Source of the DNA: Bolinopsis microptera
Lineage: Eukaryota; Ctenophora; Tentaculata; Lobata; Bolinopsidae
Assembly (NCBI RefSeq): GCF_026151205.1
Contig: NC_087084.1
Span: forward strand, 968,312-1,032,311
Length of the DNA: 64,000 bases
Direction of reading: 5' to 3'
The notes under the pieces are model-generated. The model did not search any database. It was given only the letters and a program-made list of their open reading frames with translations, and was not told the origin of the DNA. This document shows, in pieces, positions 4,534 to 63,035 of the stretch (the first letter of the stretch is position 1; the number at the start of each line of letters is the position of its first letter). Made by a program: the position numbers and the translations under genes.

Positions 4534-4575
4534 ATGATAGTGAGGAGGTTCTTTCAACTGCTTGCTCTTGTCACG
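4534..4575 (+). CDS. Multi-Ig gene exon 1: signal peptide start
   Basis: The 14 codons read MIVRRFFQLLALVT and are followed by a textbook donor, GTAAGT, in phase 0. Joined to exon 2 this gives a basic N-terminus and a hydrophobic core ending near VIGA, which is a good secretory signal peptide. Seen directly: the ATG, the in-frame upstream stop, the donor and the compatible phase. Inferred: the protein is exported. The exon lies 68 bp outside the left end of the inverted repeat, so the right-hand copy of the gene has no counterpart in this window. Confidence 0.7.
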
Positions 4576-4950: not shown

Positions 4951-5038
4951 GTTATTGGAGCGAATTTTGATTTTTCAGATGCTGACTCGTCAGGACAAGC
5001 AGCAACCTGTGAACAAGGGTTCGTTATAGATGGCGAAG
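4951..5038 (+). CDS. Multi-Ig gene exon 2: end of signal peptide, start of Cys-rich region
   Basis: The acceptor TTTTTCTCAG precedes the exon and the donor GTAAGT follows it. It is entered in phase 0 and left in phase 1. It encodes VIGANFDFSDADSSG and then QAATCEQGFVIDGE. The first residues complete the signal peptide and TCEQGF begins the cysteine-rich module. An ATG at 4924 just upstream, in frame, could act as an alternative start if exon 1 were skipped. The mirrored copy is intact at 63036-63123. Confidence 0.7.
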
Positions 5039-5193: not shown

Positions 5194-5272
5194 GTTGTAG
5201 AGGTTGTCCCGCCGGTACCAAAGCTAAGTCCGATCAAACAGGTTGTGACACGTGTCCGTTAGACTCATACAG
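5194..5272 (+). CDS. Multi-Ig gene exon 3: GCC2/GCC3 (ephrin-receptor-like) Cys module, first half
   Basis: This 79-nt exon is entered in phase 1 and left in phase 2, between ...TTATCAG and GTGAGT. It encodes GCRGCPAGTKAKSDQTGC then DTCPLDSY, matching the CxxCPxGT...CxxCPxxxYS pattern of the GCC2/GCC3 (ephrin-receptor-like) family, a small disulphide-bonded extracellular module. It must splice to exon 4 to finish the domain. Its last 26 or so nucleotides are the seed of the 39-bp splice-donor array that follows directly. Confidence 0.75.
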
Positions 5273-8200
5273 GTGAGTTCAATGTGAAACGTTTCCGCTA
5301 GACTCATACAGGTGAGTTTAATGTGAAACGTGTCCTCTATACTCATACAGGTGAGTTCAATGTGAAACGTGTCCTCTAGACTCATACAGGTGAGTTTAAT
5401 GTGAAACGTGTCCTCTAGACTCATACAGGTGAGTTCAATGTGAAACGTGTCCTCTAGACTCATACAGGTGAGTTTAATGTGAAACGTGTCCTCTATACTC
5501 ATACAGGACAGTTCAATGTGAAACGTGTCCTCTAGACTCATACAGGTGAGTTCAATGTGAAACGTGTCCTCTAGACTCATACAGGTTAGTTCAATGTGAA
5601 ACGTGTCCTCTAGACTCATACAGGTGAGTTCAATGTGAAACGTGTCCTCTAGACTCATACAGGTGAGTTCAATGTGAAACGTGTCCTCTAGACTCATACA
5701 GGTGAGTTCAATGTGAAACGTGTCCTCTAGACTCATACAGGTGAGTTCAATGTGAAACGTGTCCTCTAGACTCATACAGGTGAGTTCAATGTGAAACGTG
5801 TCCTCTAGACTCATACAGGTGAGTTCAATGTGAAACGTGTCCTCTAGACTCATACAGGTGAGTTCAATGTGAAACGTGTCCTCTAGACTCATACAGGTGA
5901 GTTCAATGTGAAACGTGTCCTCTAGACTCATACAGGTGAGTTCAATGTGAAACGTGTCCTCTAGACTCATACAGGTGAGTTCAATGTGAAACGTGTCCTC
6001 TATACTCATACAGGTGAGTTCAATGTGAAACGTGTCCGCTAGACTCATACAGGTGAGTTCAATGTGAAACGTGTCCTCTAGACTCATACAGGTGAGTTCA
6101 ATGTGAAACGTGTCCGCTAGACTCATACAGGACAGTTCAATGTGAAACGTGTCCTCTATACTCATACAGGTTAGTTCAATGTGAAACGTGTCCTCTATAC
6201 TCATACAGGACAGTTCAATGTGAAACGTGTCCTCAAGACTCATACAGGTGAGTTCAATGTGAAACGTGTCCTCTAGACTCATACAGGTGAGTTCAATGTG
6301 AAACGTGTCCGCTAGACTCATACAGGACAGTTCAATGTGAAACGTGTCCTCTATACTCATACAGGTTAGTTCAATGTGAAACGTGTCCTCTATACTCATA
6401 CAGGTTAGTTCAATGTGAAACGTGTCCTCTAGACTCATACAGGACAGTTCAATGTGAAACGTGTCCTCTAGACTCATACAGGTTAGTTCAATGTGAAACG
6501 TGTCCTCTATACTCATACAGGTGAGTTCAATGTGAAACGTGTCCTCTATACTCATACAGGTTAGTTCAATGTGAAACGTGTCCTCTAGACTCATACAGGT
6601 GAGTTCAATGTGAAACGTGTCCTCTATACTCATACAGGTTAGTTCAATGTGAAACGTGTCCTCTATACTCATACAGGTTAGTTCAATGTGAAACGTGTCC
6701 TCTAGACTCATACAGGTGAGTTCAATGTGAAACGTGTCCGCTAGACTCATACAGGACAGTTCAATGTGAAACGTGTCCTCTATACTCATACAGGTTAGTT
6801 CAATGTGAAACGTGTCCTCTATACTCATACAGGTTAGTTCAATGTGAAACGTGTCCTCTAGACTCATACAGGACAGTTCAATGTGAAACGTGTCCTCTAG
6901 ACTCATACAGGTGAGTTCAATGTGAAACGTGTCCTCTAGACTCATACAGGTTAGTTCAATGTGAAACGTGTCCTCTATACTCATACAGGTGAGTTCAATG
7001 TGAAACGTGTCCTCTATACTCATACAGGTGAGTTCAATGTGAAACGTGTCCGCTAGACTCATACAGGTTAGTTCAATGTGAAACGTGTCCTCTATACTCA
7101 TACAGGTGAGTTCAATGTGAAACGTGTCCTCTATACTCATACAGGTTAGTTCAATGTGAAACGTGTCCTCTAGACTCATACAGGTGAGTTCAATGTGAAA
7201 CGTGTCCTCTAGACTCATACAGGTGAGTTCAATGTGAAACGTGTCCTCTAGACTCATACAGGTGAGTTCAATGTGAAACGTGTCCTCTATACTCATACAG
7301 GTGAGTTCAATGTGAAACGTGTCCTCTATACTCATACAGGTGAGTTCAATGTGAAACGTGTCCTCTAGACTCATACAGGTGAGTTCAATGTGAAACGTGT
7401 CCTCTAGACTCATACAGGTGAGTTCAATGTGAAACGTGTCCTCTAGACTCATACAGGTGAGTTCAATGTGAAACGTGTCCTCTATACTCATACAGGTGAG
7501 TTCAATGTGAAACGTGTCCTCTAGACTCATACAGGTTAGTTCAATGTGAAACGTGTCCTCTAGACTCATACAGGTGAGTTCAATGTGAAACGTGTCCTCA
7601 AGACTCATACAGGTGAGTTCAATGTGAAACGTGTCCTCTATACTCATACAGGTGAGTTCAATGTGAAACGTGTCCTCTATACTCATACAGGTTAGTTCAA
7701 TGTGAAACGTGTCCTCTATACTCATACAGGTGAGTTCAATGTGAAACGTGTCCTCAAGACTCATACAGGTGAGTTCAATGTGAAACGTGTCCTCTATACT
7801 CATACAGGTGAGTTCAATGTGAAACGTGTCCTCTATACTCATACAGGTGAGTTCAATGTGAAACGTGTCCTCTATACTCATACAGGTTAGTTCAATGTGA
7901 AACGTGTCCTCTATACTCATACAGGTGAGTTCAATGTGAAACGTGTCCTCTAGACTCATACAGGTGAGTTCAATGTGAAACGTGTCCTCTAGACTCATAC
8001 AGGTGAGTTCAATGTGAAACGTGTCCTCTAGACTCATACAGGTTAGTTCAATGTGAAACGTGTCCTCTAGACTCATACAGGTGAGTTCAATGTGAAACGT
8101 GTCCTCTAGACTCATACAGGTGAGTTCAATGTTAAACGTGTCCTCTAGACTCATACAGGTTAGTTCAATGTGAAACGTGTCCTCTATACTCATACAGGTG

Positions 8201-9802
8201 AGTTCAATGTGAAACGTGTCCTCTAGACTCATACAGGTGAGTTCAATGTTAAACGTGTCCTCTAGACTCATACAGGTTAGTTCAATGTGAAACGTGTCCT
8301 CAAGACTCATACAGGTGAGTTCAATGTGAAACGTGTCCTCAAGACTCATACAGGTGAGTTCAATGTGAAACGTGTCCTCTATACTCATACAGGTGAGTTC
8401 AATGTGAAACGTGTCCTCTATACTCATACAGGTTAGTTCAATGTGAAACGTGTCCTCTATACTCATACAGGTGAGTTCAATGTGAAACGTGTCCTCTAGA
8501 CTCATACAGGTGAGTTCAATGTGAAACGTGTCCTCTAGACTCATACAGGTGAGTTCAATGTGAAACGTGTCCTCTAGACTCATACAGGTTAGTTCAATGT
8601 GAAACGTGTCCTCTAGACTCATACAGGTTAGTTCAATGTGAAACGTGTCCTCTAGACTCATACAGGACAGTTCAATGTGAAACGTGTCCTCTATACTCAT
8701 ACAGGTGAGTTCAATGTGAAACGTGTCCTCTAGACTCATACAGGTGAGTTCAATGTGAAACGTGTCCTCTAGACTCATACAGGTGAGTTCAATGTGAAAC
8801 GTGTCCTCTAGACTCATACAGGTGAGTTCAATGTGAAACGTGTCCTCTAGACTCATACAGGTGAGTTCAATGTGAAACGTGTCCTCTAGACTCATACAGG
8901 TAAGTTCAATGTGAAACGTGTCCTCTAGACTCATACAGGTGAGTTCAATGTGAAACGTGTCCTCTAGACTCATACAGGTGAGTTCAATGTGAAACGTGTC
9001 CTCTATACTCATACAGGTGAGTTCAATGTGAAACGTGTCCTCTAGACTCATACAGGTGAGTTCAATGTGAAACGTGTCCTCTAGACTCATACAGGTGAGT
9101 TCAATGTGAAACGTGTCCTCTAGACTCATACAGGTGAGTTCAATGTGAAACGTGTCCTCTATACTCATACAGGTGAGTTCAATGTGAAACGTGTCCTCTA
9201 TACTCATACAGGTGAGTTCAATGTGAAACGTGTCCTCTATACTCATACAGGTGAGTTCAATGTGAAACGTGTCCTCTAGACTCATACAGGTGAGTTCAAT
9301 GTGAAACGTGTCCTCTATACTCATACAGGTGAGTTCAATGTGAAACGTGTCCTCTATACTCATACAGGTGAGTTCAATGTGAAACGTGTCCGCTAGACTC
9401 ATACAGGTTAGTTCAATGTGAAACGTGTCCTCTATACTCATACAGGTGAGTTCAATGTGAAACGTGTCCTCTATACTCATACAGGTTAGTTCAATGTGAA
9501 ACGTGTCCTCTAGACTCATACAGGTGAGTTCAATGTGAAACGTGTCCTCTAGACTCATACAGGTGAGTTCAATGTGAAACGTGTCCTCTAGACTCATACA
9601 GGTGAGTTCAATGTGAAACGTGTCCTCTATACTCATACAGGTGAGTTCAATGTGAAACGTGTCCTCTAGACTCATACAGGTGAGTTCAATGTGAAACGTG
9701 TCCTCTAGACTCATACAGGTGAGTTCAATGTGAAACGTGTCCTCTAGACTCATACAGGTGAGTTCAATGTGAAACGTGTCCTCTATACTCATACAGGTAA
9801 GT
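5273..9802 (+). repeat. 39-bp tandem array carrying 117 consecutive 5' splice sites
   Basis: The unit is about 25 nt copied from the end of exon 3 (...ACGTGTCCTCTAGACTCATACAG) followed by the first 14 nt of the intron (GTGAGTTCAATGTG). The donor dinucleotide recurs from 5273 to 9797, exactly 116 periods of 39 nt with no indel. Most copies read CAG|GTGAGT. About two dozen read GTTAGT, eight read GACAGT (5507, 6128, 6207, 6324, 6443, 6755, 6869 and 8666, approximate positions) and the last reads GTAAGT. In the exon frame GTGAGT gives an immediate TGA, so only the first donor yields an intact module. The long antisense open frame across the array is a by-product of 39 being divisible by three. 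Confidence 0.95.
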
Positions 9803-9980
9803 TCAATGCGCTACTGGTGCGGAGGTATTAGGTAAACAGGTTCTGACACGTGACAGTGTTTAACCTAATCTCGCCCAATAACGACCCTGTCAATCGAATT
9901 GTTAAGGTAGTTTGAAAGTTACGAACAGTGTGCTTAACATTTCATTAAATAACATTTCATATTCTGACACTTACTTTCAG

Positions 9981-10066
9981 CTTGGCGGAGGCTACAGAAT
10001 GTGTAGAATGTGCTGGCTCGTTAGGAACTGTAAGTGATGGAAGCACCAAGGCTGAGGATTGCGCCA
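9981..10066 (+). CDS. Multi-Ig gene exon 4: Cys-rich module, second half
   Basis: The acceptor TTACTTTCAG and donor GTAAGT are clear. The exon is entered in phase 2 and left in phase 1, matching exons 3 and 5. It encodes (S)LAEATECVECAGSLGTVS then DGSTKAEDCA, which supplies the later cysteines expected after CxxCPxxxYS in a GCC2/GCC3 module. The mirrored exon at 58869-58954 has the same 86-nt length. Confidence 0.75.
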
Positions 10067-11696: not shown

Positions 11697-11882
11697 CCGT
11701 GTGTACGGTCCCGAGCGTGGAGAATACGATAACCGGAACGACACCTTCTGGTACCCGGTTGGCAGATGGCGAGGATTCCACCATCGTGTGTGATAGTGGC
11801 TACCAGTACGCAGATCAGGAAACACAAATTATATCATGTGACGTTTCCCTCGATAACAACGGGTACCCTGCCGGCTGTAGAA
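11697..11882 (+). CDS. Multi-Ig gene exon 5: sushi/CCP domain
   Basis: The exon is preceded by CTTTTTAG, followed by GTAAGC, and is phase 1 at both ends, so it is a free cassette. It encodes a sushi (complement control protein) module: CTVPSVENTITGTTPSGT, then GEDSTIVCDSGYQYAD, ISCDVSLDNNGYPAGC. Four cysteines in the C...C-xx-GY...C...C arrangement are visible. Sushi modules bind other extracellular proteins and often sit at the N-terminus of adhesion or complement-like receptors. The right-arm copy (57347-57532) keeps the same length and frame but has several substitutions (for example PSVEN against PIVMN), so the two copies have truly diverged. Confidence 0.8.
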
Positions 11883-13166: not shown

Positions 13167-13460
13167 AAATAACGCTGACATTACCGAATAATCCCTCCTT
13201 AAAAATGGGTAGCGAAGCGTCACTTACATGTGTCGTCGAAAATGAGTCGGATAACTCAGATATAACTTGGTTCAAGGGCGAGTCGCAACTCCTTAGTCCA
13301 GATGACAACTACGGATTTGATATCGATACAGATGCACTAACTTCTATTTTGACTATCAAAGTTCTGGATGATACTCACACTACATCCTACTCATGTAGAT
13401 TGAACTACCTATCTCCACTGCTCAGTGAACAGTCCATAACTGGTGACCTCACTGTCCTAG
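13167..13460 (+). CDS. Multi-Ig gene exon 6: Ig domain 1
   Basis: One complete Ig domain lies in a single phase 1-1 exon of 294 nt (acceptor TTTTTCAG, donor GTCAGG, which is weak). The visible Ig framework is SEASLTCVVENESDNSDI with TW, then LTSILTIKVL, and the second cysteine in TSYSCRLNY. The spacing of Cys, Trp and Cys fits an I-set or V-like fold. It is probably extracellular and part of the binding rod. The right-arm copy at about 55680-55970 has frame-breaking indels. Confidence 0.75.
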
Positions 13461-16250: not shown

Positions 16251-16465
16251 TCAGTTTTTTCTTTCTTTAATTTGTTGTTTTCTTAGTTGTATAACTTTTC
16301 CACTCTATTGCTGCTCAAATTTACACACACTTCGAAAATGTTTACAAATTATCTGATTGATTACATCAATACATTACAATTAAAATCGGTTTATTGTTTC
16401 ACCAAATTTTCTGTTAAAGTTTAAACTGATTAAACTGTATTTTCCGCACACCTGCGAAGTCAACC

Positions 16466-16984
16466 ACCTTTATTACAGGACTAAAACCGTTGAGGGGGGT
16501 GAATCAAACCGACCTTTATTACAGGACTAAAACCGTTGAGGGGGTTAAATCAAACCCACCTTTATTACAGGACTAAAACCGTTGAGGGGGTTGAATCAAT
16601 CCCACCTTTATTACAGGACTAAAACCGTTGAGGGGGTTGAATCAAACCCACCTTTATTACAGGACTAAAACCGTTGAGGGGGTTAAATCAAACCCACCTT
16701 TATTACAGGACTAAAACCGTTGAGGGGGTTAAATCAAACCCACCTTTATTACAGGACTAAAACCGTTGAGGGGGTTGAATCAAACCCACCTTTATTACAG
16801 GACTAAAACCGTTGAGGGGGTTGAATCAAACCCACCTTTATTACAGGACTAAAACCGTTGAGGGGGTTGAATCAAACCCACCTTTATTACAGGACTAAAA
16901 CCGTTGAGGGGGGTGAATCAAACCCACCTTTATTACAGGACTAAAACCGTTGAGGGGGTTGAATCAAACCCACCTTTATTACAG
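16466..16984 (+). repeat. 46-bp tandem array carrying 12 consecutive 3' splice sites
   Basis: The unit is ACCTTTATTACAG followed by GACTAAAACCGTTGAGGGGG and TTGAATCAAACCC, that is, the 3' end of intron 9 plus the first 33 or so nt of exon 10. Units start at 16466, 16512 and so on to 16972, every 46 nt with no indel. Each contains a usable TTTATTACAG|G acceptor. Entering at any upstream copy gives ...CAG GAC TAA, a stop in the next unit, so only the last acceptor (AG at 16983-16984) yields Ig domain 3. The mirrored array (about 52090-52680) is degraded by sequence noise. Confidence 0.93.
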
Positions 16985-17172
16985 GACTAAAACCGTTGAG
17001 GGGGTTGAATCAAACCCAACTCCTGAAACTCCAAAATCCCCTACACTGTTTGAAACCTCGAGTGAACTTAGAATTAGCAGTGCTCAAATAAGCGACTCGG
17101 GATCTTATAAGTGCAGTGCCACGTTCGGGGAAACAACTGTGGAAAGTACTGTCGCTGCAGTCACCGTTCTTG
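16985..17172 (+). CDS. Multi-Ig gene exon 10: Ig domain 3, second half
   Basis: The exon uses the last acceptor of the 46-bp array and ends at donor GTAGGT, phase 2 to phase 1. It encodes TKTVEGVESNPTPETPKS then ELRISSAQISDSGSYKCSAT and TVESTVAAVTVLG. ISDSGSYKC is a classic DSGxYxC motif around the second Ig cysteine. The first 33 or so nt of this exon were used to build the array upstream. Confidence 0.78.
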
Positions 17173-17484: not shown

Positions 17485-18262
17485 GTAAAGAACCCGCCGG
17501 ATAACCCGGCCACTGTCTTCTGGATACAGGAGACAGCAATATGTGTAATATGTGTAATATGTGTAATATGTGTAATATGTGTAGTATGTGTAATATGTGT
17601 AATATGTGTAATATGTGTAATATGTGTAATATGTGTAATATGTGTAATATGTGTAATATGTGTAATATGTGTAATATGTGTAATATGTGTAATATGTGTA
17701 ATATGTGTAATATGTGTAATATGTGTAATATGTGTAATATGTGTAATATGTGTAATATGTGTAATATGTGTAATATGTGTAATATGTGTAATATGTGTAA
17801 TATGTGTAATATGTGTAATATGTGTAATATGTGTAATATGTGTAATATGTGTAATATGTGTAATATGTGTAATATGTGTAATATGTGTAATATGTGTAAT
17901 ATGTGTAATATGTGTAATATGTGTAATATGTGTAATATGTGTAATATGTGTAATATGTGTAATATGTGTAATATGTGTAATATGTGTAATATGTGTAATA
18001 TGTGTAATATGTGTAATATGTGTAATATGTGTAATATGTGTAATATGTGTAATATGTGTAATATGTGTAATATGTGTAATATGTGTAATATGTGTAATAT
18101 GTGTAATATGTGTAATATGTGTAATATGTGTAATATGTGTAATATGTGTAATATGTGTAATATGTGTAATATGTGTAATATGTGTAATATGTGTAATATG
18201 TGTAATATGTGTAATATGTGTAATATGTGTAATATGTGTATGGCATTAAGATATGACTGCAG
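17485..18262 (+). repeat. Candidate nascent intron: duplicated exon segment plus (ATGTGTAAT)n
   Basis: A 53-bp exon segment (GTAAAGAACCCGCCGG ... GAGACAGCA) occurs at 17485-17538 and, with three or so substitutions, at 18263-18316. Between the copies is a 9-bp repeat, ATGTGTAAT, about 78 copies (17539-18241). The first copy begins after AAG and the second after CTGCAG, so splicing GT17485 to AG18262 removes 778 nt and restores one seamless exon frame. This is the arrangement expected when duplication of an AGGT-containing exon segment creates an intron. The repeat leaves several frames open by chance, which are not genes. Confidence 0.8.
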
Positions 18263-21121: not shown

Positions 21122-21233
21122 GAATTGTTACGCCACTGGATGCGAACTACTACTCGATTGGGAAGGATTCTGTTTCCTTTACTTGCGAACTAGGAGTAGG
21201 AGCTGCTGGGGATGTCCCTACTTTTACTGCATG
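21122..21233 (+). CDS. Multi-Ig gene exon 18: Ig domain 7, first half
   Basis: Acceptor ATATCTTCTAG, phase 1 entry. It encodes GIVTPLDANYYSIGKDSV then SFTCELGVGAAGDVPTFTAW, with the tryptophan codon split TG|G (phase 2) by donor GTAAGT. Reading through gives TGG TAA, an immediate stop. The end of this exon seeds the 50-bp donor repeat. Confidence 0.7.
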
Positions 21234-21389
21234 GTAAGTCTGCATTCCTTTGTTGAGGGGGCTGTCCCTGCTTCTACTGCATGGTGAGTCTGCATTCCTT
21301 TGTTGAGGGGGCTGTCCCTGCTTCTACTGCATGGTGAGTCTGCATTCCTTTGTTGAGGGGGCTGTCCCTGATTCTACTGCATGGTAAGT
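21234..21389 (+). repeat. 50-bp tandem repeat carrying 4 consecutive 5' splice sites
   Basis: Donors recur at 21234 (GTAAGT), 21284 and 21334 (GTGAGT) and 21384 (GTAAGT), each after CTACTGCATG. The unit is the last 22 or so nt of exon 18 plus about 28 nt of intron (GTGAGTCTGCATTCCTTTG...). Only the first donor gives the correct Ig frame. Mirrored, degraded copies lie at about 47735-47905. Confidence 0.92.
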
Positions 21390-27117: not shown

Positions 27118-27532
27118 GTAAGTACCGTATTGAAGTAGAATTAGGTACCGTTATAGAAGCACCGTATTGAGAAAAAGGATACGATTTTGAATTAGCAGTT
27201 TTGTTAAAGTACCTGTTTCTAAATCTGGGTGTGGTTCTGTATATTTAATGAGGTTTTTATCAAATCAAGCAAACAACCTATAAATATAATCATCCAACAT
27301 CTTTGCCCAATTCCTGCCACTCGGATACCACCGTCAATCTTAACGTTTATGGTACGTTTTTCAACGCTAAAAGTTATCTTGCAACAAAGTTTTTGATTAT
27401 GTACTCATTTCTGATTTCTATCTCACAGCCACATTACAAATTCAATTCATACCAGATAAACTAAATGGTAATATCACGCGAGTGTCATAAATTTCAAATT
27501 AGAGAGTATTTATTTATCAAAACATACTTCAG
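27118..27532. pseudogene. Intron 23 with a truncated relic of the Ig cassette
   Basis: At about 27299-27349 the last 50 or so nt of a cassette exon (CACTCGGATACCACCGTCAA...GTTTATG) and its GTACGT donor survive, followed by the standard cassette intron. The rest of that copy is missing. The array therefore once had at least one more member at its 5' edge. The remainder is AT-rich intron. Confidence 0.75.
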
Positions 27533-27823
27533 ATGTTGAATCAGTGAATAAAGAAGTGAAGAAAGGCTCTGATACAACCATATCCTGTGTTATCACTGGA
27601 TTGACAGAAACAGCAACAGTGACCTGGCGAACTAGTACAGGACCAGTTCCAGCTGAAAAGTTCACCGCTGTCCAAGGTAGCCATTCTGGAGGGACACAAA
27701 CATCAACTCTTGCTGTAGACGGAACTCTTGTGAACGACGATACTGCTTACACTTGCAGAGTCACTTCCGGATCTTTGCCCGATTCCAGCCACTCGGATAC
27801 CACCGTCAATCTAAACGTTTATG
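27533..27823 (+). CDS. Multi-Ig gene exon 24: Ig cassette 1 (Ig domain 14)
   Basis: The first complete cassette is a 291-nt phase 1-1 exon (acceptor ACATACTTCAG, donor GTACGT). It encodes VNKEVKKGSDTTISCVITG then LTETATVTWRTSTGPVPAE, TAYTCRVTSGSLP and TTVNLNVY. Cys, Trp and Cys are all present. It differs from its neighbours mainly between the core tryptophan and the TSTL strand (GPVPAEKFTA, TQTSTLAVDGTL). Confidence 0.8.
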
Positions 27824-27997
27824 GTACGTTTTTCAACGCTAACAGTTATCTTGCAATGCTGTTTTTCATTTGGTACTCATTTCTATCTCACAGCCACATT
27901 ACAAATTCAATTCATACCAGATAAACTAAATGGTAATATCACGCGAGTGTCATAAATTTCAAATTAGAGAATATTCATTTATCAAAACTTACTTCAG

Positions 27998-28281
27998 ATG
28001 TTGAATCAGTGAATAAAGAAGTGAAGAAAGGCTCTGATACAACCATATCCTGTGTTATCACTGGATTGACAGAAACAGCAACAGTGACCTGGCAAACTAG
28101 TACAGGAGCAGTTTCAGGTAAAAAGTTCACCCCTGTCCAAGGAAGCCATTCTGGAGGGAAACAAACATCAACTCTTGAAGTAGACGGAAGTCTTGTGAAT
28201 GAAGATACTGCCTACACTTGCAGAGTCACTTCCGGATCTTTGCCCGATTCCAGCCACTCAGATACCACCGTCAATCTAAAC
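27998..28281 (+). pseudogene. Multi-Ig gene exon 25: Ig cassette 2, interrupted by the Penelope-like element
   Basis: The exon is a normal cassette (TVTWQTSTGAVSGKKFTP...) until ...TTVNLN, where the retroelement begins with TGA. The last seven exon bases (GTTTATG) and the GTACGT donor lie beyond the element at 31442-31448. As it stands the exon has no donor and ends in a stop. It could work only by exon skipping (phase 1-1 permits that) or by removing the element. Confidence 0.8.
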
Positions 28282-28562
28282 TGAGTGGAGTTGGGTTAGA
28301 AACATATAAGAGATACGATGATTTAACTTGTAGAAGCTTTCAATAAACATGTGTTAATCGTCGTCAGCTGAATGTGATGTGGTGGACAATGCTTATATGT
28401 GATTGAGTGGTTTCAGGGATGGAGGGTGGGGGAGGTATGGGTGGGAAAGTGAAAATTACAGTACAATGTCAATAAAAATTTAGTCTTCTGTTGAGGTTGA
28501 GAAGGAAATGCCAGATGGTCTGGACTTTAAGGATTTGGCAATTTTAGGAAGAATGGGGTCCC
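28282..28562 (-). repeat. Pseudo-LTR of the Penelope-like element (3' copy relative to its ORF)
   Basis: It begins TGAGTGGAGTTGGGTTAG on the plus strand and ends GAATGGGGTCCC. The ORF stop at 28480 lies inside it, so the last 27 or so codons are in the repeat. CAATAAACATG and GTCAATAAAAATT are possible polyadenylation or processing signals. Confidence 0.88.
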
Positions 28563-31122
28563 AGAGAGAACTACATTTGGGTGCGCGGTCTGTTCTGTTC
28601 ATGGCTGGTTGTCGTATTTGTATAGCTGCATGTTCTGTGAGGTCAAGTTGGGAGCGTGAGGTGAGGGATTTGAGGACTTCGATTTTGTTCCAGGAGATGG
28701 TGTGGCCGGTGGTCAGGGCATGATGTGCAGGGGCTGATTTGATTCTGTCTGTGGATTCGTCGATGGCGTTGTTGAGTCTGTAACATCGTTCGTGTTCTTT
28801 CATGCGGTGGACCAAGGGTCTGTAGGTCTGTCCGGCGTATTTGGAGGGACACTGTGAGCAGGAAATTTCGTAGATGGTGTTGGGAGTGAGGTGAGTAGGG
28901 GGTGTGGTCTTCGTTTTGGTGAGGAGGTTGCGGAGGGAGGTAGCAGAGGAGTGGGTGACTTTGATGTCGTGTTGTCCGAGTATCTTGGAGATGGGTTTCG
29001 ATAGGGAGGGATGGAAAGGAAGAGAAACACTAAGGGCATGTTCACGGGTCTGTCGGTTGAATGAGGCTAGGGATTGGTGGCGAGAGGGGTTGGTGAATTT
29101 CCGTTGTACTTCGTCCATGATGGTGGTGATGCGGTGAGGAGGGAAGCCGTTCTGGAGGCAAACGTGTCGTACTGTCTGGAGTTCGTCGTCAAGGTGTTGG
29201 GGTGAGCAGATGTTGTGGGCTCTTCTGGTCAGTGATCGGATGACTGCGTTCTTAGATGAGTTGGTGGTGCAGGAGGAGTACTTGGTGTAAAGGTTGGTGT
29301 GGGTGGGTTTTCTGTAGACTGATGTGGATTTGTCAGGGTGGATGAGAACGTCAAGGAAGGGTATAGTTCCGTCTGTAGAGGGATGTTCTTGGGTAAAGTT
29401 GAGGTCTTCAGTAAGGGAGTTAAGGAATGTAAGGAAGGATTCTGCGTGGTTTCTGTCTCTGAAAGATCCAAGGCCGTCGTCAACGAAATGGGAGTAAGTG
29501 TTCGGAGGGTCAGGACATGAGGATAAAGCTAAGGTCTCGATTTCAGCAAGGCGGATTTCAGCTAGTTCAACAATGAGGGGGGATCCCATTGTACCTCCTT
29601 CGTCTTGGGAGTAGAAGGAGCCGTTGAATTCAAGGTATGAGTTGTCAAGGCAAAAGTTGATAAGGGAGCCTATGGTGGTGGTGGTGACATTGGGGGGAAG
29701 ACGAGAGGGGTTCTGTTCAAAGGAGGAGATGACAGTTTTGAGGGCTAGGCGCATGTCACAGGAGGTGTACAAGGATTGGACGTCTAAGGAGGCGTGGTAG
29801 TGGAAGGAGGGATTGAGAGAGGAGTCGAAGCGGTGTTTGAAGTCGGAAGAGTCTTTGAGGCGTAAGGGGTTCTGGGCTAGGGGTTTGAGGAAAGAAGCGA
29901 GGACTTTGTGGAGGGCTTGTAGGGGGGTGTTGTAGAAGCTGACTACGGGACGGATAGGTGCGCCGGGTTTGTGTATCTTAGGTTGTCCGTAAAGTTGAGG
30001 CCATCTAGGATGTAGGTTGCGCATCTTGTGGTAAAGGTCGGTCGTGATCTTCTTGTCGGTGTGTAGTTTCTTGAGGACTTTCTGTAGTTTAGTGGTGACG
30101 GATTGAGTGGGGTCTTTCGTTAAGAGGGTGTAACTACCTGAGGATAAGTGGTCGGTAACTTTGGTTATGTATTGATCGTGAGTCAGTACAACAGTGGCGT
30201 TGCCCTTATCAGCAGGAAGAAATTTCAATTCAGATTTCTTAGATTTTAAAGATTTAAGAGCGGTACGTTGTTGTGGAGTCAAATTGTCGGTGGTCATGTC
30301 ACGTTTATTGTCAAATTTAGATAATACAGAGGTGACCTGATATGTGGCTGAGGCTTCCATGCCTTCTCCTAGTTGTTTAGTGATATTCTGTATGAGGGGA
30401 GCCAGGTCGGGGGTAGGGTCTGAGGTGGGTGTCGGGACAAACTTCAGTCCAAGGGAGAGGACGTCAGTTTCAGCTGTGGAGAGGGTCTGTCCAGAGAGGT
30501 TGATCACTGTTTTGGCTGTGTTGTCTTTCTTGGGGGTAGGTGAGGTCTTGAGGAGAGGACCATGAAATGTGGGAGAGGGTATGTCGAGCGTTTTAAGAGT
30601 GTCGTAGGGTGAGAGGAAGGGGGTGTCGTATTCTGAGAGTAGTACCGCGAACTTCTTTTGGTGAGTAAGGAGTTGTTTTCTGTGGGTGTATGAAGATTTT
30701 TTGGTGTTGAGGTGTCCTAGTTTCTGAAAATATTGAGGGGTTATGAGTGATTCTATGTGTCTGAGGTTGTGCTCATAAGTGCGTTTGTGTTGTGCATATT
30801 TGAGGCGATAGTGGTTGAGTCTTTCAGTGATGAGGAGGTTAGATGCGTGAGTGAGGACTTCAGTTGAGCGTTTGGTGGATAGTGGGTTGGTGAGTCTGAG
30901 TCCCTTAGGGATGAGTGAGTGATCACGGCAGGCTTTCAGGAATGATATGTGACATGAGTTAATGGCCATGTGTTCTATGCTGTGAGAGGTGGTTTTGGCC
31001 AGTGTGGATGCATGCTGTCCAAATAGTGATATGAGTGAGTCATTAAATGAAAGTTGGGTGGTAGGATTGATGTGTTGATTAGGTGTTTCTGTGGATTCTG
31101 CACTGTTTGCTGTCTGATCCAT
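28480..31122 (-). CDS. Penelope-like reverse transcriptase with GIY-YIG endonuclease
   Basis: An intact ORF of about 880 codons. I start it at the ATG giving MDQTANSAESTET (31122), because the open frame before that has no ATG. The N-terminal 270 or so residues are helical and of unknown role. The reverse transcriptase follows: LPADKGNATVVLTHDQY, YGQPKIHKPGAPIRPVVS, SLDVQSLYTS (motif A aspartate), GGTMGSPLIVELAEI (motif B) and YSHFVDDGLGSF (catalytic VDD). The C-terminus is a GIY-YIG nuclease: IYEISCSQCPSKYAGQTY, RMKEH and DLTEHAAIQ, with downstream asparagine. This order is diagnostic of endonuclease-bearing Penelope-like elements, which copy their RNA at a nicked target. All catalytic motifs appear intact, so the copy may be active. 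It inserted into exon 25. Confidence 0.93.
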   Translation of the reverse strand: MDQTANSAESTETPNQHINPTTQLSFNDSLISLFGQHASTLAKTTSHSIEHMAINSCHISFLKACRDHSLIPKGLRLTNPLSTKRSTEVLTHASNLLITERLNHYRLKYAQHKRTYEHNLRHIESLITPQYFQKLGHLNTKKSSYTHRKQLLTHQKKFAVLLSEYDTPFLSPYDTLKTLDIPSPTFHGPLLKTSPTPKKDNTAKTVINLSGQTLSTAETDVLSLGLKFVPTPTSDPTPDLAPLIQNITKQLGEGMEASATYQVTSVLSKFDNKRDMTTDNLTPQQRTALKSLKSKKSELKFLPADKGNATVVLTHDQYITKVTDHLSSGSYTLLTKDPTQSVTTKLQKVLKKLHTDKKITTDLYHKMRNLHPRWPQLYGQPKIHKPGAPIRPVVSFYNTPLQALHKVLASFLKPLAQNPLRLKDSSDFKHRFDSSLNPSFHYHASLDVQSLYTSCDMRLALKTVISSFEQNPSRLPPNVTTTTIGSLINFCLDNSYLEFNGSFYSQDEGGTMGSPLIVELAEIRLAEIETLALSSCPDPPNTYSHFVDDGLGSFRDRNHAESFLTFLNSLTEDLNFTQEHPSTDGTIPFLDVLIHPDKSTSVYRKPTHTNLYTKYSSCTTNSSKNAVIRSLTRRAHNICSPQHLDDELQTVRHVCLQNGFPPHRITTIMDEVQRKFTNPSRHQSLASFNRQTREHALSVSLPFHPSLSKPISKILGQHDIKVTHSSATSLRNLLTKTKTTPPTHLTPNTIYEISCSQCPSKYAGQTYRPLVHRMKEHERCYRLNNAIDESTDRIKSAPAHHALTTGHTISWNKIEVLKSLTSRSQLDLTEHAAIQIRQPAMNRTDRAPKCSSLWDPILPKIAKSLKSRPSGISFSTSTED

Positions 31123-31151
31123 AGGGGTGGAGTTGCGTATCAAAATAAAAC

Positions 31152-31432
31152 TGAGTGGAGTTGGGTTAGAAACATATAAGAGATACGATGATTTAACTTG
31201 TAGAAGCTTTCAATAAACATGTGTTAATCGTCGTCAGCTGAATGTGATGTGGTGGACAATGCTTATATGTGATTGAGTGGTGTCAGGGATGGAGGGTGGG
31301 GGAGGTATGGGTGGGAAAGTGAAAATTACAGTACAATGTCAATAAAAATTTAGTCTTCTGTTGAGGTTGAGAAGGAAATGCCAGATGGTCTGGACTTTAA
31401 GGATTTGGCAATTTTAGGAAGAATGGGGTCCC
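31152..31432 (-). repeat. Pseudo-LTR of the Penelope-like element (5' copy relative to its ORF)
   Basis: A near-identical direct repeat of 28282-28562, just upstream of the ORF start in the element's own orientation. It is expected to carry the internal promoter. The 9-bp target duplication AATCTAAAC follows, and then the remainder of exon 25. Confidence 0.88.
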
Positions 31433-31622
31433 AATCTAAACGTTTATGGTACGTTTTTCAACGCTAACAGTTATTTTGCAACATAGTTTTTCATTCGGTA
31501 CTCATTTCTATCTCACAGCCAAATTTCAAATTCAATTCATACCAGATAAACTAAATGATAATAGGATGCGAGTGTCATAGATTTCAAATGAGAGAGTATT
31601 CATTTATCAAAACTTACTTCAG

Positions 31623-32038: not shown

Positions 32039-32615
32039 CAGAATAAAACAAATATTCAGAATAAAACAAATATTATATTCAAATCTCTTTATTCAACAAT
32101 ATTAAATCATTACAGAACCTAATTTGTGGCTTGATCGTTATGTTAGGGCTATTTTGTTAGCTGATGCTGACAGGCACCGCATGGGGCAGAGACTTAGAAC
32201 CATTACGCTGGAGGCTTACAATGACCCTTTTTGAACCCCATGGCAGTGCAAGTTTTATTATGGTACAAATTGTAAATCGAAGTTGTGAAAACGATCAAGT
32301 CACTCCTGTTTTACACTATCAACAGCTACTTAAAACAACCTAGATTGTACAACTCACTTTGAAGATTAAACTGTTAAGTGATGAGTGATTGGGCTCATCA
32401 AACATTTTAGTAGCGGAGACATGCGGATCAGCTTCTTGAGGTTCTAATAGTTCATTTAGACAAGAAGTTTTACTTTTTCAAATTTAGTCGTTCAAGCTGC
32501 CTGAGTTCAGAAAGTTTGCCAAAGGGGCCAGGTATTCTTGTCACCTTTACCCTGAGACGAGAGAATGACTTTTTTACCTTTGATTTGAATACACCATGAG
32601 TGATTTTAAGGTCGT
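32039..32615 (-). mobile_element. About 577-bp insertion of unknown class in a cassette intron
   Basis: The standard cassette intron (GATGCGAGT|GTCATAG) is split by this segment. On the minus strand it has AATAAAGAG near the end and two copies of AATATTTGTTTTATTCTG at its 3' terminus, which might mean a retrocopied transcript end. No target duplication, inverted termini or coding were found. The mirrored copy (36373-36950) shows it was inserted before the arms separated. Confidence 0.5.
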
Positions 32616-32664
32616 GTTATAGATTTCGAATAAGAGAGTATTCATTTATCAAAACTTACTTCAG

Positions 32665-32955
32665 ATGTTGAATCAGTGGATAAAGAAGTGAAGAAAGGCT
32701 CTGATACAACCATATCCTGTGTTATCACTGGATTGACAGAAACAGCAACAGTGACCTGGCAAACTAGTACAGGCGAAGTTTCAGGTGATAAGCTCGTCCC
32801 TGTCCAAGGAAGCCAATCTGGAGGGACACAAATATCAACTCTTGAAGTAGACGGAAGTCTTGTGAATGAAGATACTGCCTACACTTGCAGAGTCACTTCC
32901 GGATCTTTGCCCGATTCCAGCCACTCAGATACCACCGTCAATCTTAACGTTTATG
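32665..32955 (+). CDS. Multi-Ig gene exon 27: Ig cassette 4
   Basis: A complete 291-nt cassette. It is the most divergent of the central group: TSTGEVSGDKLVPVQGSQ then SGGTQISTLEVDG. Framework cysteines, tryptophan and splice sites are unchanged, so the variation falls in the exposed C-C' region. Confidence 0.8.
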
Positions 32956-33129
32956 GTACGTTTTTCAACGCTAACAGTTATCTTGCAATGCTGTTTTTCA
33001 TTTGGTACTCATTTCTATCTCACAGCCACATTACAAATTCAATTCATACCAGATAAACTAAATGATAATAGGATGCGAGTGTCATAGATTTTGAATAAGA
33101 GAGTATTCATTTATTAAAACTTACTTCAG

Positions 33130-33420
33130 ATGTTGAATCAGTGGATAAAGAAGTGAAGAGAGGCTCTGATACAACCATATCCTGTGTTATCACTGGATTG
33201 ACAGAAACAGCAACAGTGACCTGGCAAACTAGTACAGGAGCAGTTTCAGGTGAAAAGTTCACCCCTGTCCAAGGAAGCCATTCTGGAGGGAAACAAACAT
33301 CAACTCTTGAAGTAGACGGAAGTCTTGTGAATGAAGATACTGCCTACACTTGCAGAGTCACTTCCGGATCTTTGCCCGATTCCAGCCACTCAGAGACCAC
33401 CGTCAATCTAAACGTTTATG
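33130..33420 (+). CDS. Multi-Ig gene exon 28: Ig cassette 5
   Basis: A complete 291-nt cassette with VDKEVKRGSDTT and GAVSGEKFTPVQGSHSGG. The donor is GTACAT in place of GTACGT. The exact mirrored copy, with the same variant donor, is at 35573-35863. Confidence 0.8.
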
Positions 33421-33594
33421 GTACATTTTTCAACGCTAACAGTTATCTTGCAACATAGTTTTTCATTCGGTACTCATTTCTATCTCACAGCCAAATTTCA
33501 AATTCAATTCATACCAGATAAACTAAATGATAATAGGATGCGAGTGTCATAGATTTCGAATAAGAGAGTATTCATTTATCAAAACTTACTTCAG

Positions 33595-33885
33595 ATGTTG
33601 AATCAGTGGATAAAGAAGTGAAGAAAGGCTCTGATACAACCATATCCTGTGTTATCACTGGATTGACAGAATCAGCAACAGTGACCTGGCAAACTAGTAC
33701 AGGAGCAGTTCCAGCTGAAAAGTTCACCCCTGTCCAAGGAAGCCATTCTGGAGGGAAACAAACATCAACTCTTGAAGTAGACGGAAGTCTTGTGAATGAA
33801 GATACTGCCTACACTTGCAGAGTCACTTCCGGATCTTTGCCCGATTCCAGCCACTCAGATACCACCGTCAATCTAAACGTTTATG
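33595..33885 (+). CDS. Multi-Ig gene exon 29: Ig cassette 6
   Basis: A complete 291-nt cassette that starts exactly 465 nt after the previous one (LTESATVTWQTSTGAVPAE, NEDTAYTCRVTSG). It is nearly the same as cassette 3, which suggests recent unequal exchange within the array. Confidence 0.8.
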
Positions 33886-34059
33886 GTACGTTTTTCAACG
33901 CTAACAGTTATCTTGCAACATAGTTTTTCATTCGGTACTCATTTCTATCTCACAGCCAAATTTCAAATTCAATTCATACCAGATAAACTAAATGATAATA
34001 GGATGCGAGTGTCATAGATTTCGAATAAGAGAGTATTCATTTATCAAAACTTACTTCAG

Positions 34060-34350
34060 ATGTTGAATCAGTGGATAAAGAAGTGAAGAAAGGCTCTGAT
34101 ACAACCATATCCTGTGTTATCACTGGATTGACAGAAACAATAACAGTGACCTGGCGAACTAGTACAGGAGCAGTTCCAGCAGGAAAGTTCAACCCTGTCC
34201 AAGGAAGCCCTTCTGGAGGGAAACAAACATCAACTCTTGAAGTAGACGGAAGTCTTGTGAATGAAGATACTGCCTACACTTGCAGAGTCACTTCCGGATC
34301 TTTGCCCGATTCCAGCCACTCAGATACCACCGTCAATTTAAACGTTTATG
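34060..34350 (+). CDS. Multi-Ig gene exon 30: Ig cassette 7
   Basis: A complete 291-nt cassette with LTETITVTWRTSTGAVPAG and KFNPVQGSPSGGKQ. It is the last whole cassette before the fold-back. No transmembrane, cytoplasmic or terminal exon follows, so the gene is incomplete in this window. Confidence 0.8.
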
Positions 34351-34396
34351 GTACGTTTTTCAACGCTAACAGTTATCTTGCAACATAGTTTTTCAT

Positions 34397-34599
34397 TCGG
34401 TACTCATTTTTATCTCACAGCCAAATTTCAAATTCAATTCATACCAGATAAACTAAATGATAATAGGATGCGAGTGTCATAGATTTCGAATAAGAGAGTA
34501 TTCATTTATCAAAACTTACTTCAGATGTTGAATCAGTGGATAAAGAAGTGAAGAAAGGCTCTGATACAACCATATCCTGTGTTATCACTGGATTGACAG
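34397..34599. other. Centre of the palindrome: about 200-bp unpaired spacer and junction
   Basis: Positions up to 34396 pair with positions from 34597 onward. About 200 nt of cassette intron and exon start between them are not repeated on the other side. At the junction, GACAGAAAC of the exon and AATGAAAAAC of the inverted intron share GAAA, a microhomology typical of fold-back or template-switch joins. Confidence 0.85.
34525..34599 (+). pseudogene. Ig cassette 8, cut off at the fold-back junction
   Basis: The exon opens normally (acceptor at 34524; DKEVKKGSDTTISCVITGL) but after ...LTE the sequence switches to the complement of an earlier intron (AAACTATGTTGC...). The domain lacks its tryptophan and second cysteine. 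Confidence 0.85.
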
Positions 34600-34642
34600 A
34601 AAAACTATGTTGCAAGATAACTGTTAGCGTTGAAAAACGTAC

Positions 34643-34933
34643 CATAAACGTTTAAATTGACGGTGGTATCTGAGTGGCTGGAATCGGGCAAAGATCCGGA
34701 AGTGACTCTGCAAGTGTAGGCAGTATCTTCATTCACAAGACTTCCGTCTACTTCAAGAGTTGATGTTTGTTTCCCTCCAGAAGGGCTTCCTTGGACAGGG
34801 TTGAACTTTCCTGCTGGAACTGCTCCTGTACTAGTTCGCCAGGTCACTGTTATTGTTTCTGTCAATCCAGTGATAACACAGGATATGGTTGTATCAGAGC
34901 CTTTCTTCACTTCTTTATCCACTGATTCAACAT
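34643..34933 (-). CDS. Right-arm copy of Ig cassette 7
   Basis: Identical in translation to exon 30 (34060-34350), with the same splice sites, on the minus strand. It belongs to the mirrored gene, whose 3' end is equally absent. Confidence 0.75.
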
Positions 34934-35107
34934 CTGAAGTAAGTTTTGATAAATGAATACTCTCTTATTCGAAATCTATGACACTCGCATCCTATTATCA
35001 TTTAGTTTATCTGGTATGAATTGAATTTGAAATTTGGCTGTGAGATAGAAATGAGTACCGAATGAAAAACTATGTTGCAAGATAACTGTTAGCGTTGAAA
35101 AACGTAC

Positions 35108-35398
35108 CATAAACGTTTAGATTGACGGTGGTATCTGAGTGGCTGGAATCGGGCAAAGATCCGGAAGTGACTCTGCAAGTGTAGGCAGTATCTTCATTCA
35201 CAAGACTTCCGTCTACTTCAAGAGTTGATGTTTGTTTCCCTCCAGAATGGCTTCCTTGGACAGGGGTGAACTTTTCAGCTGGAACTGCTCCTGTACTAGT
35301 TTGCCAGGTCACTGTTGCTGATTCTGTCAATCCAGTGATAACACAGGATATGGTTGTATCAGAGCCTTTCTTCACTTCTTTATCCACTGATTCAACAT
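35108..35398 (-). CDS. Right-arm copy of Ig cassette 6
   Basis: Identical in translation to exon 29 (33595-33885), at the exact mirrored coordinate. Confidence 0.75.
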
Positions 35399-35572
35399 CT
35401 GAAGTAAGTTTTGATAAATGAATACTCTCTTATTCGAAATCTATGACACTCGCATCCTATTATCATTTAGTTTATCTGGTATGAATTGAATTTGAAATTT
35501 GGCTGTGAGATAGAAATGAGTACCGAATGAAAAACTATGTTGCAAGATAACTGTTAGCGTTGAAAAATGTAC

Positions 35573-35863
35573 CATAAACGTTTAGATTGACGGTGGTCTC
35601 TGAGTGGCTGGAATCGGGCAAAGATCCGGAAGTGACTCTGCAAGTGTAGGCAGTATCTTCATTCACAAGACTTCCGTCTACTTCAAGAGTTGATGTTTGT
35701 TTCCCTCCAGAATGGCTTCCTTGGACAGGGGTGAACTTTTCACCTGAAACTGCTCCTGTACTAGTTTGCCAGGTCACTGTTGCTGTTTCTGTCAATCCAG
35801 TGATAACACAGGATATGGTTGTATCAGAGCCTCTCTTCACTTCTTTATCCACTGATTCAACAT
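35573..35863 (-). CDS. Right-arm copy of Ig cassette 5
   Basis: Mirrors exon 28, including the unusual GTACAT donor and the KEVKRGS variant, so the copy was made from, or homogenised with, this very array. Confidence 0.75.
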
Positions 35864-36034
35864 CTGAAGTAAGTTTTAATAAATGAATACTCTCTTATTC
35901 AAAATCTATGACACTCGCATCCTATTATCATTTAGTTTATCTGGTATGAATTGAATTTGAAATTTGGCTGTGAGATAGAAATGAGTACCGAATGAAAAAC
36001 TGTATTGCAAGATAACTGTTAGCGTTGAACGTAC

Positions 36035-36324
36035 CATAAACGTTAAGATTGACGGTAGTATCCGAGTGGCTGGAATCGGCAAAGATCCGGAAGTGACTCT
36101 GCAAGTGTAGGCAGTATCTTCATTCACAAGACTTCCGTCTACTTCAAGAGTTGATATTTGTGTCCCTCCAGATTGGCTTCCTTGGACAGGGACGAGCTTA
36201 TCACCTGAAACTTCGCCTGTACTAGTTTGCCAGGTCACTGTTGCTGTTTCTGTCAATCCAGTGATAACACAGGATATGGTTGTATCAGAGCCTTTCTTCA
36301 CTTCTTTATCCACTGATTCAACAT
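36035..36324 (-). pseudogene. Right-arm copy of Ig cassette 4, one base short
   Basis: It corresponds to exon 27 but has lost one G in the GATTCCAGCC...CCCGATT segment (GAATCGGCAAAG against GAATCGGGCAAAG), which shifts the frame near the end. The flanking intron has also lost AAAA. These are the first differences met when moving out from the centre. Confidence 0.7.
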
Positions 36325-36372
36325 CTGAAGTAAGTTTTGATAAATGAATACTCTCTTATTCGAAATCTATGA

Positions 36373-36950
36373 CACGACCTTAAAATCACTCATGGTGTAT
36401 TCAAATCAAAGGTAAAAAAGTCATTCTCTCGTCTCAGGGTAAAGGTGACAAGAATACCTGGCCCCTTTGGCAAACTTTCTGAACTCAGGCAGCTTGAACG
36501 ACTAAATTTGAAAAAGTAAAACTTCTTGTCTAAATGAACTATTAGAACCTCAAGAAGCTGATCCGCATGTCTCCGCTACTAAAATGTTTGATGAGCCCAA
36601 TCACTCATCACTTAACAGTTTAATCTTCAAAGTGAGTTGTACAATCTAGGTTGTTTTAAGTAGCTGTTGATAGTGTAAAACAGGAGTGACTTGATCGTTT
36701 TCACAACTTCGATTTACAATTTGTACCATAATAAAACTTGCACTGCCATGGGGTTCAAAAAGGGTCATTGTAAGCCTCCAGCGTAATGGTTCTAAGTCTC
36801 TGCCCCATGCGGTGCCTGTCAGCATCAGCTAACAAAATAGCCCTAACATAACGATCAAGCCACAAATTAGGTTCTGTAATGATTTAATATTGTTGAATAA
36901 AGAGATTTGAATATAATATTTGTTTTATTCTGAATATTTGTTTTATTCTG
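36373..36950 (+). mobile_element. Right-arm copy of the 577-bp unknown insertion
   Basis: Mirror of 32039-32615 with almost no change. Its flank keeps GTCATAG where the left has GTTATAG. Confidence 0.6.
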
Positions 36951-37366: not shown

Positions 37367-37557
37367 CTGAAGTAAGTTTTGATAAATGAATACTCTCTTA
37401 TTTGAAATCTATGACACTCGCATCCTATTATCATTTAGTTTTATCTGGTATGAATTGAATTTGAAATTTGGCTGTGAGATAGAAATGAGTACCGAATGAA
37501 AAACTATGTTGCAAAATAACTGTTAGCGTTGAAAAACGTACCATAAACGTTTAGATT

Positions 37558-40500: not shown

Positions 40501-40697
40501 GACATTTGTACTGTAATTTCACTTTCCCCCACCCTACTCCACCCAAACAACGACCTCCATCCTGACACCACTCAATCACATATAACATTGTCCACCACAT
40601 CACATTCAGCTGACGACGATTAACACATGTTTACATTGAAAGCTTCTACAAGTTAATCAGCGTATCTCTTATATTTTCTAACCTAACTCCACTCAGT
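37558..40697 (+). pseudogene. Right-arm copy of the Penelope-like element, frameshifted
   Basis: Same insertion point and pseudo-LTRs as 28282-31432. The first 250 or so bp of coding match, then single-base losses from about 38100 onward break the frame repeatedly. One stretch (38961-39455: PRWPQLYGQPKIHKPG to GGTMGSPLIVELAEI) stays open. The breaks are dense and indel-type, which fits sequence error better than decay, since the left copy is intact. Confidence 0.8.
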
Positions 40698-56329: not shown

Positions 56330-56374
<45 letters not shown>

Positions 56375-58954: not shown

Positions 58955-59117
58955 CTGAAAGTAAGTGTCAGAATATGAAATGTTATTTAATGAAATGTTA
59001 AACATACTGTTCGTCACTTTCAAACTACCATAACAATTCGATTGGGCGTTATTGGTTAAACACTGTCACGTGTCATAACATGGTTTACCTAATACCTCCA
59101 CACCAGTAGCGCATTGA

Positions 59118-60293: not shown

Positions 60294-60372
60294 CTGTATG
60301 AGTCTAACGGACACGTGTCACAACCTGTTTGATCGGACTTAGCTTTGGTACCGGCGGGACAACCTCTACAAC
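60294..60372 (-). CDS. Right-arm copy of exon 3: Cys-rich module, first half
   Basis: Same 79-nt exon as 5194-5272, with an open frame (GCRGCPAGTKAKSDQTGC then DTCPLDSY). The donor is GTTAGT. Confidence 0.75.
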
Positions 60373-60452
60373 CTGATAACGCACAGTTTAGTTAATTAAG
60401 CTGATTAGTAAAGTTATAGAAATATTGAATTACACTTATGACTGCAACAAGT

Positions 60453-62954: not shown

Positions 62955-63035
62955 AGTAACCCAACAATCTCGTAATATACTTCAAAATCATTTTGGTGAA
63001 TATACAGGGACAAAATATCGGCTAATTCAACTTAC

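Follow-up and report, generated by a model that had tools for sequence, protein, structure and literature searches.

How can a gene carry more than one hundred consecutive copies of the end of one exon, most of them with a 5′ splice site? This question is raised by a stretch of 64,000 nucleotides from the ctenophore Bolinopsis microptera (assembly GCF_026151205.1, contig NC_087084.1, positions 968,312 to 1,032,311, forward strand; hereafter the window), in which a 39-bp tandem array follows exon 3 of a receptor-like gene. We propose that the array is probably a minisatellite that arose when 39 bp spanning the exon 3/intron 3 junction were duplicated, and that it is spliced out through its first donor, is tolerated, and most likely exists as alleles of 117 and 31 units. 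An earlier note, made from the window sequence, had listed a neutral expansion hidden inside an intron among several possibilities, and this is the best reading of the present data.

5244–9808, forward strand: 39-bp tandem array of 117 units, 109 of them with a GT donor (Tandem Repeats Finder and unit-by-unit reading)

In the 64-kb window, Tandem Repeats Finder gave for this interval a period of 39, 117.1 copies, 96% matches, and 0% indels. The unit consensus, TGTGAAACGTGTCCTCTAGACTCATACAG|GTGAGTTCAA, is composed of 29 bases of the exon end and 10 bases of the intron start. TG stands at the start of the unit and again after the final unit. With units arranged head to tail and a unit length within about 10–100 bp, the array has the layout of a minisatellite, or variable number of tandem repeats (VNTR). 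The donor GT of unit 1 lies at 5273 and the donor position of unit 117 at 9797. The earlier note had described 117 donors in perfect 39-nt register; the 117 units and the absence of any indel were confirmed, but the GT is missing in 8 of them, leaving 109 possible GT donors. The donor hexamers are variable, as had been stated (GTGAGT in 83 units, GTTAGT in 24, GACAGT in 8), but GTAAGT is found in two units (94 and 117) instead of one. The exonic half had been called nearly constant, a description that has to be given up: its 29 bases are identical to the consensus in 60 of the 117 units, and a single exonic site deviates in 42. Per site, the intronic part is more variable than the exonic part (45 changes at 10 sites vs 60 at 29). 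Ten U1 candidates were found in the genome; one of them was read, and its 5′ end is of the standard form and complementary to CAGGTAAGTAT. GTGAGT, GTTAGT, and GACAGT gave computed duplex energies to U1 of −12.2, −8.2, and −5.6 kcal/mol, respectively. Full pairing with the 5′ end of U1 is predicted for the 85 units that have GTGAGT or GTAAGT (−12.1 to −12.2 kcal/mol).

Judged from its predicted domains, the host of the array is a Cys-rich/CCP/immunoglobulin (Ig) receptor-like gene. Six exons were recognized, partly through a paralogue at C9 described below.

4534–4575, forward strand: exon 1, coding part MIVRRFFQLLALVT, signal-peptide-like by eye; matched by the C9 paralogue, with a GTAAGT donor next to it
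4951–5038, forward strand: exon 2, AG in front and GTAAGT behind; conserved in the C9 paralogue
5194–5272, forward strand: exon 3, GCRGCPAGTKAKSDQTGCDTCPLDSY, terminating at donor 1; PF07699 spans the exon 3–4 junction
9981–10066, forward strand: exon 4, AG in front and GTAAGT behind; single-copy counterpart in the C9 paralogue (L009)
11697–11882, forward strand: exon 5, Sushi/CCP-like (PF00084, 17.2 bits, under the cut-off of 20.7)
13167–13460, forward strand: exon 6, immunoglobulin domain (PF13927, 39.6 bits, cut-off 30)

Joining exon 3 to exon 4 from donor 1 gives one open frame across the six exons. Ephrin_rec_like (PF07699) was matched at 25.7 and 27.3 bits, above the Pfam gathering cut-off of 23.1, and the match crosses the junction made by donor 1, in agreement with the earlier claim that this donor yields an intact Cys-rich module. 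In addition, three further stretches of the gene were given to Pfam; two scored above Ig-family cut-offs and one was weak (Ig_3, 18.3 bits, cut-off 30). Because a unit equals 13 codons, a later donor would preserve the frame. Nevertheless, only donor 1 of the 117 gives a stop-free exon 3 in this copy of the locus; a stop is met after the later donors because the first GTGAGT reads AGG TGA.

The genome (264.65 Mb, 232 contigs) was searched with exon 3 and the first units. Beyond the two copies of the locus in the window, one place was found, on a different chromosome (C9:6435698-6435792). This paralogue has the exon end once, as TACAG|GTGAGTTCACTGCCCTACTGG, with no array and one donor. Its unit equals the array consensus across the 29 exonic bases, and exons 1, 2, and 4 of the array gene have counterparts in it. 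The C9 paralogue thus appears, from this comparison, to show the state before array growth, and the earlier proposal of an exon 3/intron 3 boundary that underwent duplication and then expansion is supported. Since the paralogue is single-copy and the six-exon frame is open, the position of the exon end is fixed. The array therefore stands at an exon end with donor-bearing units (GT in 109 of 117), as does the multiple-donor minisatellite of human IFI6.

The window also contains an inverted duplicate centred near 34.6 kb and running past the right edge, which had been overlooked together with a shorter array on its other arm.

34601–64000: right arm of the inverted duplicate; at about 40–56 kb, 38–68 indels per kb relative to the left arm
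59112–60322, reverse strand: second copy of the 39-bp array, 31 units, donor 1 GTTAGT (Tandem Repeats Finder and arm comparison)

The left and right arrays represent the same site, because unit 1 of both carries C at site 6, which no other unit does. Thus, two copies of the locus in one assembly differ in array copy number, 117 vs 31 units. Up to about 4 kb from the centre, the arms mismatch at 0–0.5%. The left arm at about 12–29 kb differs from the right arm by 38–68 indels and 28–74 mismatches per kb over a stretch of about 16 kb. In the one stretch open to comparison, the paralogue has 8 gap openings (1106 columns) against the left arm and 64 (1148 columns) against the right, and so resembles the left arm in its indels. 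Farther out, alignable stretches have 11/154, 6/205, 3/127, 16/465, 0/174, and 0/218 substitutions per aligned bases (0–7%), with large insertions between them. A plain fold-back of a single molecule was rejected as the whole story, because the outer arms differ by large insertions, substitutions, and array copy number; near the almost identical centre, there may be a fold-back or a real inverted duplication. The indel-rich stretch looks like unpolished reads bridging a contig and its alternative haplotype. According to the portions of PMC10232365 consulted, the genome was made with wtdbg, HiRise, TGS-GapCloser, Purge Haplotigs, and pilon, and such an arm structure could arise from this pipeline. 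The 117- and 31-unit arms are thus most likely two alleles of the locus. Two other features were seen on the right arm: a run with 60 G in 64 bases (56311-56374), and about 2.5 kb exclusive to this arm (60452-62955), including tandem 177-bp units (60674-61060).

The right copy differs from the left in its first donor. At −8.2 kcal/mol to U1, its donor 1 (GTTAGT) is predicted to pair less strongly than its donor 2 (GTGAGT, −12.2). Furthermore, donor 2 is stop-free and would add 13 residues, including two cysteines, and the longer isoform matches PF07699 at 32.1 bits vs 27.3 for the shorter. The earlier statement that only the first donor avoids TGA therefore holds for the left copy but fails for the right.

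The order of unit variants is informative about how the array changes. Units 45–53, a block of nine, reappear as units 105–113, 60 units apart, with six non-consensus units in common, and this match was reached by none of 500 shuffles of unit order. Such a block structure is typical of a minisatellite changing by exchange, and random consensus errors hardly yield it. By this measure, the internal pattern of variant repeats is that of a VNTR undergoing unequal exchange, with a second measure, given below, being weaker.

We suggest the following course of events. A 39-bp tandem duplication across the exon 3/intron 3 junction would have created two donors. If the upstream donor was chosen, the mRNA would have remained unchanged, so that further copies could be gained at little cost. 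Slippage, unequal exchange, or conversion would then have altered the copy number, leading to 117 and 31. The array would be tolerated, and nearly neutral, because the entire expansion stays intronic whenever splicing takes donor 1, which lies closest to the upstream 3′ splice site. Most units are as strong as donor 1, and so we infer that the choice must depend on position, through this closeness.

The same gene carries two further arrays over splice sites and an intron that the paralogue lacks.

16464–17018, forward strand: 46-bp array of 12 units across the 3′ splice site TTTATTACAG|GACTAAAACC, which belongs to an Ig exon; the paralogue has a single unit here
52110–52673, reverse strand: second copy of the 46-bp 3′ splice-site array, inside the indel-rich stretch (Tandem Repeats Finder)
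21208–21389, forward strand: 50-bp array of 3.6 units with four donors across the 5′ splice site CTGCATG|GTRAGT; the paralogue has a single donor here
47735–47909, reverse strand: second copy of the 50-bp 5′ splice-site array, inside the indel-rich stretch (Tandem Repeats Finder)
17485–18262, forward strand: intron without counterpart in the paralogue, filled with AATATGTGT x78 (Tandem Repeats Finder and paralogue comparison)

The exon downstream of the 46-bp array matches I-set (24.1 bits, cut-off 23.7), and it is the exon pair joined at the 50-bp array that gave the weak Ig_3 match (18.3 bits, cut-off 30) mentioned above. An exon segment of about 57 bp, present in duplicate, borders the intron at 17485-18262 in the form AAG|GTAAAG ... 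CAG|GTAAAG. In the C9 paralogue (position 7859 of L009+L032), the segment is found once and there is no intron, whereas the window has it twice, and joining the exon across the intron gives an Ig match (PF00047, 31.3 bits). AG|GT within a duplicated piece of exon, together with a relative that has no such intron, is what intron gain by tandem duplication should leave behind. The intron has thus apparently been newly gained, as the AGGT model would predict.

Elsewhere in the gene, tandem units of 465 bp were seen at 27299-28281 and 32614-36375, each with an Ig-like exon and an intron by eye, which appear to be an exon-level expansion within the array gene. An element with 286-bp direct repeats at its ends (one difference) lies inside these repeats at 28278-31433, with its mirror at about 37557-40699.

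The 39-bp array is not alone in this genome, where a number of other minisatellites also span splice sites. Three CAGGTRAGT words separated by gaps of 18–42 bases were found 774 times (286 + 488). The reversed control word gave 6 matches at one locus, itself a TAG|GTGAGT array, and a control word of the same composition gave 36 matches at four loci. Another control word, AGTCAGRTG (296 matches), was dropped as a clean control, because R = G gives CAGGTG and most of the 100 matches listed belong to one 22-bp array with CAG|GTGAGA. As a single word, CAGGTRAGT is 1.7 times commoner than its reverse (4373 vs 2576). Among the 100 CAGGTRAGT triples listed, which reach C5:13.8 Mb and cover about 100 Mb of sequence, there were nine loci; extrapolation gives about 24 loci in the whole genome, vs 1 and 4 for the control words. 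Match numbers do not count independent events; taken by locus, the excess is about 6- to 24-fold instead of 100-fold.

For GGTAAGT, 5354 triples were found vs 44 for its control. Two unit families bearing this word recur at separate sites, as though dispersed (a 32-bp unit at C1:36576 and C1:761375, and a 40-bp unit at C1:7503 and C1:914088), and thus match counts exceed independent events. Acceptor-like TTTTCAG triples numbered 933 vs 198 for their control, an excess smaller than that for donors and counted in matches, not loci. A long 47-bp array at C3:10522198-10525882 has the acceptor-like TTTTCAGGACAGC in most listed units; a near copy lies about 200 kb off, from C3:10725660 onward, and these two account for most of the 100 TTTTCAG matches listed.

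Eighteen other array loci were examined, being all loci among the donor-array matches listed. They have 17 different units, one unit being common to L027 and L028. In one array of the genome, at C3:5823797-5828486, a 46-bp unit is repeated 102 times. The two halves of a homeobox at C10 are separated by a 35-bp array in which 20 CAGGTAAGT donors are intact; when donor 1 of this array is joined to the next exon, PF00046 is matched completely (1–57 of 57, 81.3 bits), vs 49.7 bits for the first half by itself. By this prediction, the C10 array lies in a homeobox intron and donor 1 restores the complete homeodomain. Pfam was run on peptides of 9 of these 18 loci, with matches at three. Two of the eight upstream peptides had matches (the homeodomain, and a WDR62-type WD40 at 22.7 bits, where the cut-off of the long model is 290), and so did one of the five downstream peptides from three loci (TAF2-like, 28.9 bits, cut-off 27). 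These repeats most likely multiply splice sites while staying hidden in introns.

We then considered what else could explain the array. That an assembler or gap closer inflated a few real units is a concern the earlier note had already voiced, and the window does show assembly trouble, namely the inverted duplicate and the roughly 16 kb with 38–68 indels per kb; the genome methods, in the portions of PMC10232365 consulted, also name wtdbg, TGS-GapCloser, and Purge Haplotigs. Nevertheless, the left array is not part of the indel-rich stretch and runs for 4.5 kb without an indel, an array is present in both locus copies, unit variants recur as a long block, and comparable arrays stand at unrelated loci. 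We therefore regard such inflation as very unlikely, although the exact numbers of units do depend on the assembly. Still less credible, to the point of being nearly negligible, is a role through U1 small nuclear ribonucleoprotein (snRNP), in which tandem U1 sites would act transcript-wide, by titration, by slowing transcription, or by telescripting, for instance if early polyadenylation of a long gene were prevented. The 109 GT units, with 85 pairing fully to the U1 5′ end, and the recurrence of donor arrays in the genome are what such a role would draw on. However, the paralogue is single-copy without an array, U1 cannot explain the acceptor-spanning array in the same gene, and it is generally understood that one transcript could not titrate an abundant snRNP. 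Titration, poison splicing, and slowed transcription, all raised before, thus gain no support from the present sequence analysis.

A splicing rheostat would be a more substantial alternative. Here the choice of donor would yield isoforms whose lengths vary in steps of 13 residues or which are cut short (poison isoforms), and the first donors, differing between alleles, would give different N-termini. The right copy, with its weak first donor, stronger and stop-free second donor, and higher PF07699 score for the longer form, fits this idea, and the human IFI6 array employs downstream repeat units, as reported in the portions of PMC4526556 consulted. On the other hand, 116 of the 117 left-copy donors meet a stop, the single-copy paralogue manages without an array, and the 35-bp unit at the homeobox locus would shift the frame for most later donors; the case is read from sequence, and we consider it unlikely. 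Slightly better placed, but still rather doubtful, is the broader proposal that splice sites, chiefly 5′ sites, are preferred seeds of minisatellite growth genome-wide in this lineage and more than places where it is tolerated, providing a fast-changing store of alternative donors and new introns, with alleles that differ in isoforms; if true, the 31-unit allele would encode an N-terminus 13 residues longer than that of the 117-unit allele. Our preferred explanation, a tolerated intronic minisatellite spliced out through donor 1, has to face several contrary points of its own. Eighty-two further units have GTGAGT with a U1 duplex energy equal to that of donor 1 (−12.2 kcal/mol), so donor 1 would win only if position decides, and the downstream units of the human IFI6 array do serve as donors (PMC4526556, in part). 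The number of distinct neighbouring unit pairs, the second measure of variant order, was 45 vs a shuffle mean of 49.1, and 21 of 500 shuffles were equally low. Instead of alleles, the arms might represent separate, real genes that face in opposite directions. Moreover, in an open-frame test only 3 of the 18 array loci reached at least the 95th percentile of random upstream points (medians 39 vs 30 codons), and so some of these arrays may not sit on exon ends. Given this result and the few Pfam matches, only some arrays can be placed on exon ends.

If the minisatellite explanation is correct, the locus tells us that a junction-crossing tandem duplication can reach kilobases while one splice choice spares the coding sequence. 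Donor arrays also recur at unrelated loci of the genome. The locus would further offer a natural experiment, in which the spliceosome chooses one donor among dozens of near-identical ones and allele-like copies have first donors of unequal predicted strength. With a paralogue that lacks the expansions, first and later steps (duplication, array, and new intron) are visible side by side in one gene. In addition, it is a warning that gene finders and short-read polishing may mishandle such loci.

In searches of the open-access literature on donor arrays and ctenophore repeats, which do not speak for work published elsewhere, we found among the papers listed no other expanded donor array beyond the IFI6 paper and general minisatellite work. 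As far as our searches go, what is new is the size of the array, the occurrence of two copy numbers together, a paralogue showing every before-state, and the recurrence in one genome. There is a named system with which it can be compared, contrary to the earlier note. The minisatellite of IFI6 is said to have a 12-bp unit. As in IFI6, the present tandem repeat stands at an exon end with 5′ splice sites in its units, more than one unit being usable in IFI6. In the portions consulted, PMC4526556 reports that the human 6-16/IFI6 (G1P3) minisatellite provides several splice donors and that downstream units are used; the work of Turri, Cuin and Porter (1995) on the 6-16 minisatellite is cited there and in PMC2572611 and PMC3618361. 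Unlike that array, with its short unit, the one described here has 39-bp units in 117 and 31 copies, and in its long copy the later donors run into a stop; furthermore, arrays are also found elsewhere in this genome and on a 3′ splice site of the array gene itself.

Intronic minisatellites have reportedly been linked to alternative splicing in C. elegans. The present array resembles ordinary intronic VNTRs in unit length, copy-number difference, and blocks of variant repeats, and differs from them in that its unit contains coding bases and the splice site itself. A further parallel is a potato gene with a tandem duplication across an intron–exon boundary and the AGGT model of intron gain (PMC4974935, in the portions consulted). 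In both cases, a boundary-crossing tandem duplication multiplies splice sites, and the intron at 17485-18262 would fit that model; unlike the potato case, however, the 39-bp array makes no new intron but has multiplied an existing donor about a hundredfold.

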